From positions 186,001 to 250,000 of the forward strand of contig VXAZ01002401.1 in the NCBI GenBank assembly GCA_013399875.1: a stretch of DNA of 64,000 bases, given 5' to 3'. Of this stretch, positions 60,401-62,454 are shown one piece after another. The notes under the pieces were generated by a model. That model worked only from the letters and a program-made list of their open reading frames with translations. It was not told the DNA's origin and searched no databases. Origin of the DNA: Gymnorhina tibicen (taxonomy: Eukaryota > Chordata > Aves > Passeriformes > Artamidae). Both the position numbers and the translations under genes were made by a program. How positions within the stretch are numbered: position 1 is the first letter of the stretch; every line of letters begins with the position of its first letter.

Positions 60401-62454
60401 TGGCATGCCTCCAATTTTTACATTATTATAATTAAACCCATTTATGTCAGCAATTATAAAAAGGGCAGAGACTACTACTTATTGTTATGAGACCTATTAT
60501 TTTACAAAACAAAGTGAAATGGATTTTATGGCTTTCCAGAGTAGCATTACAGACATCTCACGAAAAAAAAAGCTCTCCTTACACTCTTTTGAACTAAAGC
60601 CAAAAATTATGATGTGGTTTTACAATTCTACCTGGAAAACAGCCCCAGTTTACAAGGTTTCAGTTCTGCAGGTAGTTCACTCTCAGGAACAGAAAAGGCT
60701 GATTAGCTGACCAGTATTAAAGTTGCACATCTGCAGTAGATAGAAATGAGAGATCTGAGGCAGCAATTTCATTAATTCTGCCAGTGAGGAGGTTGTGCCA
60801 CCTGCCAGAGAAATGGAGAACTGCTGCTTGTCCAGAATCCCACTTGAGTATTTTTAATTATTTTTAACTTATTAGATTAGGATTGTCCTCCTGTAAACAC
60901 CCTTTTAAGAGCAGGGTTTAGCCATATGCAATGGACTCTCATGGAGCCTCAGAGGATCACCTGGTGAGATATTTTTGCACAATTCTTACTGCAAAGGTGA
61001 GTTCCAGTTGAGCAGTGCTCTTAGCAAAGGAATGGGAATAAAACTGAGATTTTTAAAACTTTCACCTGTTAAATCAAGCAAGAACAGGAAAAATTAGGGA
61101 GAAACATACAAAGGTACCAAAGAACTTTAAGGCAGATGATGATTTTGCCATCAAAAAAACCTCAGAAATGGCAATTTCAATATTTTAATATTTAGAGACA
61201 CCATTTCCCACCATTTAGCTGTGCATTTTAAGAAGCTGTTTTCAGAAAGGTGCATGCAGTGAACTGTACCTCATTTTCCCCACAGTCAGAAGGTGTGTCC
61301 TTGTGTACAGACATCTGATACTTGGCAAATAAAGTGGCAGATTGGTTGAAGGATGATTTGAACTGGGGGTCCTCAAAGGAGACAGGTACTAACCTCACCT
61401 TCAGAGCAAGGGAGATACAAGCATTCTGTTTTGAGTGCATATCATCAGATAATCTGCTTCTGAAGGTCAGGCTAGTGAAATATCTCCTCCTAGCCAATTC
61501 AAAGCCTCCAAAGTCAGTTTTCTACCTTAAACATAATAATAAGACAACTTCCTATTTTTACTAATATCTAACAAATCAACTACAAACTTTAGTTTTACTG
61601 CACAGTCTCAAGGACTTCTTAAAATGTTTTATTTTTAATGGCACATCCCTCATTGATTGCCCTGGTTCAACAATTACTTATTATTGCCACATATACTATT
61701 TCTCCAAACTCATGATATTTTTTTTTCCTTGTAGTATTAGAGATGCAACACATCTGACAGTTCACTCTTACACCCCACCTGGTCATTGCAAGAAGCAGCA
61801 ACAATGTGTAATTTAGATGGAGTGCATAGATTACTTTTTAAAGGCTTAAACTGAAACTGAAGAGAATTATTTAACTCTGGTGAACCTTAAGCCAACAATT
61901 CGAGCGTGTGATAAATTTTTGCTCACACCTTGGCCCTGATCATTGTATCCTTCTTATGGAAACATTCAATCCAAAGCCAACGAGGCCAGTCATCAGGCTG
62001 AGCATCCAGCTGGATTTAGTTTTATGGGATTTGTATTTTTAAAGCCCATCTCTATCTCTAAGAGCCTCACCCTCTCTATCTCTTACCCAGCAGCATCCCC
62101 TTGTAGCATCCATAACTTTTCTGCCTGCATCTAAAACCAAGTATCTGTGGCACTCACAAAGAGATATCGAGAGTTTGCACTTTCAGGATGTTGATTTTAT
62201 TGGATACGGAATCTTACAAGCTCCTGAATACACAATGGATATAAAATCCACATTTGTTTCTCCTTGAAACAGGACATGTGAAATGGAGGGGAAGCTTTGC
62301 ATAAAATTAAATTTGGCCTTCTGACCTGATTTATGGTTGGTTTATCAGGTGGGTCCTTGTGAATAACCATCTGGTAACGTTTATAGACCTGGTAAGACTC
62401 CTGAAATGTGGCTTTGAACTGTGAACTTGGTGGAGATGATCTCACCACCCTCAC
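3284..62454 (-). CDS. ATE1: ATE1, arginyl-tRNA--protein transferase 1 (C-terminal half, split over seven exons)
   Basis: ATE1 transfers arginine from Arg-tRNA to proteins with N-terminal Asp, Glu or oxidised Cys, making Arg/N-degrons for ubiquitin-dependent degradation. It acts in cytosol and nucleus. The identification rests on strings I recognise from vertebrate ATE1: [52 protein letters not shown] and QYASLVGQ. These belong to the C-terminal ATE domain with its GNAT-like fold. Exon joins at 62326 or 61270/52018, 51986/46411, 46230/43385, 43286/19179 and 19059/3462 all use GT-AG and keep one frame. One exon 7 plus the rest gives 744 nt, 247 residues and a stop. Vertebrate ATE1 is about 518 residues, so the N-terminal cysteine-containing domain and the promoter lie beyond 64000. 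No frameshift or internal stop is seen, so the gene appears intact here. Confidence 0.97.
9935..10215 (-). mobile_element. CR1 LINE 3' fragment
   Basis: The plus strand begins tcatagaatgacagaatcat, the reverse complement of the CR1 3' tail. It continues with CR1-like text including ctgttccagtgctggacaac and ttcctcttgtcctgtcaagg. The element thus lies in minus orientation and is 5'-truncated, as is usual for CR1. It is diverged, so probably old. Confidence 0.85.
11430..11650 (+). mobile_element. CR1 LINE 3' fragment
   Basis: The sequence contains ccctgtgagggtgggcaggc, gcccagagaagctgtggctg, cctgcccatggcagggggtg and ccttccaacccaaaccattc, and ends attcttctatga. This is the CR1 3' region in plus orientation, 5'-truncated and better preserved than the copy at 9935. 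Confidence 0.92.
13539..13571. repeat. Direct repeat, 13 bp twice
   Basis: tctgcctacatcc occurs at 13539-13551 and again at 13559-13571, 20 nt apart. Confidence 0.85.
15326..15372. repeat. Palindrome and thrice-repeated tttagtcta motif
   Basis: tttagtcta occurs at 15326-15334, 15341-15349 and 15364-15372. Positions 15343-15360 form a perfect 18-bp palindrome, tagtctattaatagacta. Confidence 0.85.
15405..15420. repeat. (CT)8 microsatellite
   Basis: Eight uninterrupted CT units on the plus strand. Confidence 0.9.
17026..17054. repeat. Short hairpin, 9-bp stem
   Basis: tcatactaa and ttagtatga are perfect inverted repeats around an 11-nt loop. No known function. Confidence 0.6.
17837..17856. 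repeat. (ATT)n microsatellite
   Basis: About 20 nt of uninterrupted ATT units. Confidence 0.9.
18036..18110. repeat. A-rich low-complexity tract
   Basis: A-rich stretch with repeated GTAAAAA units and poly-A runs. Confidence 0.8.
19059..19179 (-). CDS. ATE1: ATE1 exon with [15 protein letters not shown]
   Basis: This 121-nt exon encodes [20 protein letters not shown] followed by [20 protein letters not shown] and the first base of a Val codon. [15 protein letters not shown] and the following QCLP are diagnostic for vertebrate ATE1. The acceptor is ccccttcccag and the donor gtaagg, both good matches to consensus. The last base G joins TC of the terminal exon to give Val. It is isolated between introns of 24.1 kb and 15.6 kb. 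Confidence 0.97.
22643..22734 (+). mobile_element. CR1 LINE 3' fragment, short
   Basis: It contains cttcccatggcagggggtgg and ttccaacccaaaccattctg and ends tgtgattc. Only the last ~90 nt of CR1 are present, with a small internal duplication (aacccaaaacatttctttccaaccc region). Confidence 0.88.
24773..24828 (-). mobile_element. CR1 LINE 3' end, ~55 nt
   Basis: It begins tcatagaatggtttgggctg and continues gaaaggacctttaaggttat, the reverse complement of the CR1 3' end. Only a very short 5'-truncated remnant is present. Confidence 0.85.
30972..31068 (-). mobile_element. CR1 LINE 3' end, first copy of a tandem pair
   Basis: It begins gaatcacaggggtatggaat and continues through ggtttgggctggaagggacc to ttccactgtccca. 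This stretch repeats the first part of the next CR1 copy almost exactly (about three differences in ~96 nt) and abuts the ambiguous base at 31069. Confidence 0.9.
31069..31069. other. Ambiguous base (N)
   Basis: The only N in the window sits exactly between two near-identical CR1 segments. It marks an unresolved or collapsed point in the assembly. Confidence 0.95.
31070..31415 (-). mobile_element. CR1 LINE 3' fragment, second copy of the pair
   Basis: It starts caatcacagggctatagaat and continues through ctgctcccagccccgtccaa to the region tccagctctcctggagcccc. It is a ~345-nt 5'-truncated CR1 piece in minus orientation and is the longest CR1 copy here. A frame of ~178 codons that crosses both copies is a by-product of the repeat. 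Confidence 0.92.
32582..32620. repeat. Tandem duplication of ~19 bp
   Basis: agtggcataaactttaatc is followed at once by agtggcaaaactttaatcag, an imperfect tandem copy. Confidence 0.85.
34584..34601. repeat. (CAA)6 microsatellite
   Basis: Six uninterrupted CAA units. Confidence 0.9.
38926..38952. repeat. 9-bp minisatellite, three units
   Basis: tcctgtgga twice, then tcttgtgga, in tandem. Confidence 0.9.
43108..43122. repeat. Poly-A tract, 15 nt
   Basis: Uninterrupted A run in the intron about 160 nt downstream of the 100-nt ATE1 exon. Confidence 0.85.
43286..43385 (-). CDS. ATE1: ATE1 exon with [11 protein letters not shown] and [12 protein letters not shown]
   Basis: This 100-nt exon completes an Arg codon and encodes [20 protein letters not shown] followed by [13 protein letters not shown]. 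The [13 protein letters not shown] block is a hallmark of ATE1 and its bacterial Bpt relatives. The acceptor is cctcacag and the donor, after AAG, is gtaaag. It ends on a codon boundary and joins the exon at 19179 to give the contiguous [10 protein letters not shown] string. The downstream intron is the longest in the window, 24.1 kb. Confidence 0.96.
43386..46229 (-). other. ATE1 intron, 2.8 kb
   Basis: AT-rich intron with one short CR1 fragment (44175-44244). Otherwise I see only unique, non-coding sequence. Confidence 0.8.
44175..44244 (+). mobile_element. CR1 LINE 3' end, ~70 nt
   Basis: It contains gcaggggagttggaatagat, gatctttaaaaggtcccttc and caacacaaactatcctctga, matching the CR1 3' end in plus orientation with several substitutions. 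Confidence 0.85.
46230..46411 (-). CDS. ATE1: ATE1 exon with [13 protein letters not shown] and YLYYDP motifs
   Basis: This 182-nt exon encodes [20 protein letters not shown] followed by [20 protein letters not shown] and [20 protein letters not shown], then the first two bases of an Arg codon. These strings are the most conserved part of the ATE C-terminal domain and include core strands of the GNAT-like acyltransferase fold. The acceptor is cttag (next to GCA at 46411) and the donor is gtaaga after ACG. The phase-2 end is completed by the first G of the next exon. The Tyr in LPYCVSS stands where I recall Asn in the human protein; this is a possible lineage change, not a defect. Confidence 0.96.
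46412..51985 (-). other. ATE1 intron, 5.6 kb
   Basis: AT-rich intron between the 33-nt microexon and the 182-nt exon. It contains a perfect 22-bp palindrome at 50282-50303. No recognised transposon or gene. Confidence 0.8.
50282..50303. repeat. Perfect 22-bp palindrome
   Basis: tgacaattttataaaattgt followed by ca reads the same on both strands over all 22 bases. It lies inside an ATE1 intron. Confidence 0.9.
51986..52018 (-). CDS. ATE1: ATE1 33-nt microexon
   Basis: This exon encodes only eleven residues, [11 protein letters not shown], matching the conserved segment between the alternative exon 7 and the [13 protein letters not shown] block. The acceptor is ctcggtgcag and the donor gtatgt. 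It begins and ends on codon boundaries, so skipping it would delete eleven residues without a frameshift. Its polypyrimidine tract is poor (cccacctcggtgcag). It stands alone between introns of 9.25 kb and 5.57 kb, so it probably depends on exonic or intronic enhancers. Confidence comes from the protein match and exact frame on both sides. Confidence 0.95.
52019..61269 (-). other. ATE1 intron, 9.25 kb
   Basis: Intron between exon 7b and the microexon. It contains a perfect 14-bp tandem duplication at 54531-54558 and a plus-strand frame of 154 codons (56703-57167) that I do not recognise. No CR1 piece was recognised. This is one place to look for a bird counterpart of the distant R5 splicing element. 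Confidence 0.75.
54531..54558. repeat. Perfect tandem duplication, 14 bp twice
   Basis: ccttccaggtgtca is repeated exactly, head to tail. Confidence 0.92.
61270..61398 (-). CDS. ATE1: ATE1 exon 7b (second of the mutually exclusive pair)
   Basis: This 129-nt exon encodes 43 residues beginning [17 protein letters not shown] and ending SDCGENE. It matches the second alternative exon 7 of vertebrate ATE1. The acceptor is gctctgaag (61407-61399), and the donor after GAG is gtacag, again a departure from gtaagt. Length and phase are identical to exon 7a, so skipping both or including both would not shift the frame. The one-of-two choice must therefore be enforced by splicing itself rather than by decay of frameshifted RNA. 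The exon lies 927 nt downstream of 7a, too far for steric hindrance between splice sites. Complementarity of its acceptor to the inverted element at 61457-61509 is described separately. Confidence 0.95.
61399..62325 (-). other. ATE1 intron between exons 7a and 7b, 927 nt
   Basis: This short intron separates the mutually exclusive exons and carries the inverted exon-7-like element at 61457-61509, close upstream of 7b. The rest is AT-rich with no recognised repeat. Confidence 0.85.
61457..61509 (-). promoter_or_regulatory. Intronic element complementary to both exon 7 acceptors (candidate splicing-control RNA element, R3-like)
   Basis: On the plus strand this segment starts cttctgaaggtcagg and includes ttcaaagcctcc. 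In that orientation it resembles the minus-strand acceptor and start of exon 7. In the ATE1 pre-mRNA it is therefore antisense to them. Against the exon 7a acceptor (62449-62463) 14 of 15 positions pair; against the 7b acceptor (61393-61407) 12 of 15 pair. A second block at 61498-61506 is perfectly complementary to exon 7a at 62410-62418, and 61498-61509 pairs at 10 of 12 positions with 7b at 61351-61362. The two blocks are in matching order, with a 4-nt difference in spacing. From memory, a human ATE1 element called R3 pairs competitively with two others near the alternative exons; whether this is the same element is inference. Confidence 0.7.
62326..62454 (-). CDS. ATE1: ATE1 exon 7a (first of the mutually exclusive pair)
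   Basis: This 129-nt exon encodes 43 residues beginning [17 protein letters not shown] and ending PPDKPTINQ. It matches the first alternative exon 7 of vertebrate ATE1. It starts after the acceptor cttctgaag (62463-62455) and ends at CAG before a non-consensus donor, gtcaga. Exon length is a multiple of three, and both ends fall between codons. It therefore joins directly to the 33-nt exon at 52018 when used without 7b. Shared positions with exon 7b include the opening VR, the QFK motif, YQM and HKD, showing that the two arose by tandem exon duplication. In mammals the choice between the two changes enzyme activity and substrate preference (family knowledge). Confidence 0.95.

Follow-up and report, generated by a model that had tools for sequence, protein, structure and literature searches.

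Background

In human ATE1, an element called R3 is reportedly paired competitively by two others, R1 and R4, as is said to have been described by Kalinina (2021, NAR). We report here that positions 61515-61450 on the minus strand of a 64,000-nucleotide (nt) stretch from the bird Gymnorhina tibicen (assembly GCA_013399875.1, contig VXAZ01002401.1, positions 186,001 to 250,000; hereafter the window, numbered from its first letter) very probably form the docking element of a two-state ATE1 pre-mRNA switch. The element lies between exons 7a and 7b and can pair with the start of either. For the human gene, the cited portion of Kalmykova 2021 (PMC8052449) lists both pairs as validated: the 7b pair with length 17, spread 51 and -33.2, the 7a pair with length 13, spread 952 and -35.9. 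The R-scape E-values given there for the human pairs, 0.65 and 0.59, provide no covariation support, and the catalogue took intronic regions only 10 nt into exons.

The insect genes Dscam, 14-3-3zeta and Mhc follow a similar logic, with one docking site, competing partners and an exclusive choice, as far as the cited parts of two reports describe them (PMC6071210, PMC11802352). In the cases described there, the docking site is found before or after the exon cluster, and the selectors are next to the exons. In the ATE1 locus described here the docking site sits between the exons, with acceptor and coding sequence among its partners.

Complementarity of the docking element to both exon starts

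The docking element, which we treat as the counterpart of R3 (61450..61515, minus strand; paired bases within 61454-61515), sits in the 927-nt intron (61399..62325, minus strand) between exon 7a (62326..62454) and exon 7b (61270..61398). Its core (61457..61471, minus strand; cctgaccttcagaag) is complementary to both acceptors. A preliminary description of this locus had read plus-strand 61457-61471 (CTTCTGAAGGTCAGG) as antisense to the 7a acceptor at minus-strand 62463-62449 (CTTCTGAAGGTGAGG) with one mismatch and to the 7b acceptor at minus-strand 61407-61393 (GCTCTGAAGGTGAGG) with three, and both counts held on rechecking. So did a second block: plus-strand 61498-61506 (TTCAAAGCC) is the same as minus-strand 62418-62410 in exon 7a, and 61498-61509 is antisense to 7b at 61362-61351 at 10 of 12 positions. 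Both blocks of the 7a match are thus real, but they are not separate: they belong to a single continuous stretch, and the original observation was understated. Most of the 26/30 nt separating them is complementary as well, and the helix therefore extends from the end of the pyrimidine tract to roughly nt 59 of the exon; with 7b, a helix of similar kind forms.

By identity, plus-strand 61450-61506 is similar to the 7a acceptor together with exon nt 1-45, and its alignment with the antisense of minus-strand 62469-62410 holds 48 identities in 61 columns, counted from the alignment itself. The similarity of the antisense intron to the exons also stands out from shuffled introns. With 7a it scores 50, whereas the best of 2000 dinucleotide shuffles reaches 32 (0/2000 as high); with 7b it scores 29, a value equalled by 5/2000 shuffles. 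As a control, the sense strand of the 7a-7b intron gave local alignment scores of 17 (7a) and 16 (7b). On the exon side the identity match stops at about nt 45, and on the intron side it stops shortly before the pyrimidine stretch of the acceptor; beyond these limits an inverted copy is at chance, both in the exon tail (equalled by 1140/2000 shuffles) and on the upstream flank (1307/2000).

One caveat concerns strand. The core alone, CTTCNGAAG, reads almost the same on both strands and so has no strand preference; the antisense character comes from the extension. Near-palindromes occur at the acceptor core CTTCTGAAG (62463-62455, minus strand) and at the docking core CTTCAGAAG (61465-61457, minus strand).

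Strength and specificity of the pairing

We next considered the predicted pairing of the docking element with each arm. The 7a arm (62396..62469, minus strand), an R1 counterpart with an exon extension, comprises the end of the pyrimidine tract, the acceptor AG and 59 nt of 7a; it forms 57 pairs with the docking element (paired 62466-62396) at -76.5 kcal/mol. The 7b arm (61346..61409, minus strand), an R4 counterpart likewise extended, comprises the acceptor AG and 53 nt of 7b and forms 50 pairs at -63.2 kcal/mol. Together with the docking element it folds into a local hairpin (61335..61525, minus strand) of -69.5 kcal/mol (z -5.5; 0/200 shuffles as stable). Restricted to the core, the energies are -29.0 (7a) and -30.9 (7b).

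In a ranking of 12,786 overlapping minus-strand windows (71 nt, step 5), the docking element ranked first as the partner of both arms. The runner-up reached -51.0 with the 7a arm and -59.3 with the 7b arm, and the best exon-unrelated place on the plus strand, untranscribed here, reached -52.3 and -60.9; the 7a pairing is far ahead of other windows and the 7b pairing slightly ahead. Shuffling the element gave no partner as strong in 2000 trials with either the 7a arm (z -9.6) or the 7b arm (z -6.6; strongest shuffle -58.1). The two helices share 47 docking bases, 40 of which face the same partner base in both. We dropped as evidence the seven of seven wobble columns in which an element G or U pairs with both exons by wobble, since pairing in both forces the wobble.

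Mutual exclusivity in computed folds

The preliminary description had proposed that only one acceptor can be masked at a time. The 47 shared docking bases bear this out, as only one helix can form at once when the same bases serve both, and the computed ensembles agree, the two states summing to about 1. Across 12 fold settings (five end pairs at two temperatures and two other energy loads, Andronescu and Langdon, which gave identical numbers and count as one), the two core helices jointly held a probability of at least 0.996. In 15 further runs where both states were computed, they summed to at least 0.98.

Which helix wins depends strongly on the ends of the folded piece and on the energy set. 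These growing-transcript series are equilibrium folds, not kinetic simulations. For folds starting at 62490 (5' end), the 7a helix was favoured as long as the transcript ended between 61457 and 61270 (0.66 to 0.998; 0.998 at 61410), and the 7b helix once it reached 61230 (0.842), 61200 (0.999) or 61150 (0.998). With the 3' end at 61230 and six other 5' ends, the 7b helix was always favoured (0.83 to 0.995). The 12-nt acceptor core of the masked exon was 0.08-0.12 unpaired where one state reached at least 0.83, and that of the free exon 0.17-0.42. A balanced switch was considered and rejected: the initial fold gave 0.157 : 0.842, and other ends or energies gave 0.97 : 0.03 to 0 : 1. Because the winner varies with fold ends and energies, we limit the claim to exclusivity and propose no 7a/7b ratio.

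Signs of selection on the pairing within one genome

Several features of the sequence are suggestive of selection on the pairing, each of them modest. In the identity alignment, all transitions between element and exon preserve pairing as G-U (3/3 columns for 7a, 6/6 for 7b). The fraction expected from composition is 0.487, giving a chance of 0.0015 for nine of nine, or 0.003 when a shared column is counted once; taken per exon, the chance is 0.12 for 7a alone and 0.013 for 7b alone. Synonymous recodings of the exons rarely pair as well: 12/4000 (7a) and 60/4000 (7b) under uniform recoding, and 18/4000 and 44/4000 under composition weights. Among 2000 random 7a mutants at 7b's distance from 7a, a single one equals 7b in its pairing. 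When element, 7a and 7b are aligned together over 59 columns, private changes number 2 in the element, 6 in 7a and 10 in 7b, and under another alignment mode 4, 4 and 9, so that the intronic element has changed least, or is tied for least, though it is noncoding.

A more conservative account, which we consider doubtful, is that only a core of 13-17 base pairs acts and that the pairing deeper in the exons is passively left over from an inverted copy not yet lost to decay. The mean lengths of 13 and 17 nt in the cited part of the human catalogue fit it (PMC8052449), and the synonymous tests do weaken away from the core. With the first three codons fixed, 77/4000 (7a) and 148/4000 (7b) uniform recodings pair as well (71/4000 and 91/4000 with composition weights), and for the distal part alone the counts are 85/4000 and 152/4000. 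However, the catalogue's limit of 10 exon nt would hide longer pairing (PMC8052449, in the portion cited), and if the element dates back to the bird-mammal split, a neutral copy would presumably be unrecognisable by now. Yet identity to the exons stands at 50/59 (7a) and 45/56 (7b), with nine of nine transitions preserving pairing under the default scheme.

Proposed switch

We propose that the docking element controls the two exons by competitive pairing. Docked on the 7a arm, it would bury the 7a acceptor and the first ~59 exon nt in the 57-pair helix and loop out the remainder of 7a, so that 7b is used. Docked on the 7b arm, it would close the local hairpin over the 7b acceptor and ~53 exon nt, and 7a would be used. 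Masking of the acceptor would be the effect of pairing in each case. The view of this segment as a competitive docking element for two acceptors, already put forward in the preliminary description, is backed by the sequence, the energy rank, the shuffles and the computed ensembles.

Several results weigh against this proposal. The 7b pairing leads narrowly (-63.2 vs -59.3 on the minus strand and -60.9 on the plus strand), and the 7b identity score is equalled by the 5/2000 shuffles noted above. In the models the freed 7a acceptor stays mostly paired elsewhere (0.17-0.41 unpaired), the winning state swings strongly with fold ends and energy set (7a state from 0.97 to 0.00), and the transcript-growth series is uneven (0.78 at 61330, 0.99 at 61300). 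As for selection, a pairing-breaking transition appears for 7b under one of the three ways of scoring the alignment, which raises the chance to ~0.009 (by hand), and the synonymous closeness may have been inherited from the copying event without selection.

The instability of the fold ratios would also suit a lineage-specific or meaningless inverted repeat, with exclusivity coming from proteins and splice-site strength. We regard this as highly improbable. The gene, place and order are those of the human elements and the spacing is similar, while the element is the best fit to both exons at once and its differences from them are biased towards those neutral for pairing.

More tentatively, an inverted exon-7 copy could act as a strand-displacement switch that created exclusivity at once, with the timing of transcription setting the choice; we consider this possible rather than probable. 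The two exons are homologous, and at 40 of the 47 docking bases used in both helices they offer an identical partner, so either exon could oust the other stepwise from the docking strand without full melting. Timing could matter because the computed winner shifts from 7a-paired to 7b-paired once the transcript passes exon 7b. A slow polymerase would allow this later state, with 7b masked and 7a freed. According to the cited part of a review (PMC11802352), human ATE1 responds to slowing with a higher 7a/7b ratio, an effect that runs through R2-R5; the agreement with the computed folding order is suggestive only. If this idea is true, exon duplication and a single inverted copy would together produce the exclusive switch in one step, and coding sequence would stay complementary to an intron.

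Relation to human ATE1 R1/R3/R4

The docking element and its arms are most likely the counterpart of human R1/R3/R4, and thus of an already known switch. The preliminary description had proposed such a bird counterpart, and gene identity, element order and spacing agree with it: the distances between cores are 49 nt (7b) and 977 nt (7a), compared with 51 and 952 in human. Orthology with the human elements rests on gene, order, spacing and logic. As in human ATE1, one element between the same two exons of the same gene pairs with either acceptor, and the longer-range helix is the stronger one, here over the full arms. Unlike in human, the order is reversed for the core alone (-29.0 for 7a, -30.9 for 7b), and the helices here reach 57 and 50 pairs, 59 and 53 nt into the exons, whereas the human entries have mean lengths of 13 and 17 nt. 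This last contrast may be methodological, as the human search stopped 10 nt into exons. The comparison raises the prospect that the human ATE1 switch, too, has an exon-deep form, which would be invisible to a search so limited. A helix of ~57 pairs might also be a fitting target for ILF3 and ZFR, double-strand binders that affect ATE1 exon choice according to the portion cited of PMC10790352.

A seeded scan for an R2/R5 pair between the 7a-7b region and 61 kilobases (kb) downstream found nothing above chance. Its best candidate, 62060-62119 with 56941-57000 (minus strand), is R2/R5-like in order and reaches -53.2 kcal/mol, while best values in controls ranged from -47.5 to -59.9 (eight other 1.44-kb blocks) and reached -49.2 on the plus strand. 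Such a pair could be located beyond the window, or its length could fall below what the scan picks up. A search of the window against Rfam returned nothing at gathering scores. Searches for other vertebrate ATE1 loci in viral and genome contig collections found none: they returned 55 and 26 peptide-pattern stretches, none a relative, and the DNA-pattern search returned 0 in viral contigs and 0 in genome contigs.

Origin of the docking element

The preliminary description had suggested that the element arose as an inverted partial copy of exon 7. The alignment supports this more strongly than was claimed, with the acceptor and ~45 exon nt in one colinear stretch, and we consider it probable, judging from the sequence, that the docking element arose when the pyrimidine stretch, the acceptor and the beginning of the exon were copied in inverted orientation. 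Alternatively, a chance complementary core could have been extended base by base under selection, with no inverted exon copy ever having existed. We find this unlikely, although the alignment gaps and the end of the similarity inside the exon fit it, and a simple stem can supply a docking core under the model in the cited part of PMC6071210. It would require that 48 of 61 colinear identities, running from the pyrimidine tract into coding sequence, were built against a protein-coding partner, and one reverse-complement copying event would be simpler.

The inverted-copy origin shares features with two described processes. In the model of Ivanov and Pervouchine 2018 (PMC6071210), as far as the cited text presents it, a stem-loop arm duplicated together with its exon yields two partners. 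Both accounts explain the two partners through tandem exon duplication; that model presupposes an intron stem, whereas here the other arm resembles a reverse-complement exon copy. Template-switch mutations, in the cited part of PMC8794818, yield nearby reverse-complement copies in a single event, which is the kind of one-step copy required here; that work concerns RNA genes, and the copying event at ATE1 is a putative one. Among the matches listed in our literature search, no title or abstract start mentions an antisense exon copy as a docking site, a scope that leaves the main ATE1 paper outside. We accordingly make no claim that the docking element's likeness to an inverted acceptor with ~45 exon nt is new to print. 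An antisense exon copy would be a simple and testable origin for docking sites in exclusive splicing. It predicts that complementarity to an intron is maintained in the coding sequence of 7a and 7b alike.

The ATE1 gene and other features of the window

By its sequence, the gene is ATE1 on the minus strand, with homologous exons 7a and 7b. Each exon is 129 nt long; 7a has an open frame between AG and GT and its protein ends in TINQ, and 7b, with AG/GT borders, ends in GENE. Exon 7b corresponds to residues 273-315 of PDB 8tzv, chain 'Isoform ATE1-2 of Arginyl-tRNA--protein transferase 1' (E 5e-15); 7a matches the same place more weakly (E 1.2e-5), and the two exons share 40% protein identity. 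A Pfam scan of the two 43-residue exon pieces alone found no ATE family. We take 7a and 7b to be the customary labels of these two ATE1 exons. The same exon names appear for human ATE1 in the cited portion of Kalmykova 2021 (PMC8052449).

Joined, the two exons (129 + 129 nt) contain no stop and the frame stays open. We examined the two donors (GTCAGA and GTACAG) and both acceptors, which do not fit the U12-type consensus. Given the 927-nt intron, the apparent lack of U12-type sites and the open joined frame, the other routes to exclusivity (a short intron, a U12/U2 mismatch, and frame or nonsense-mediated decay) do not appear to apply. Residues 1-11 of 7b (61398-61366, minus strand) are identical in the PDB ATE1-2 chain and later positions differ; this identical stretch is part of what lies in the helix.

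Elsewhere in the window, a scan for the CR1 end motif gave no match. The end of a 121-codon open reading frame resembles the C-terminus of CR1 retrotransposon proteins, as would fit a bird or reptile; the frame lies at 9935-10300 on the minus strand.

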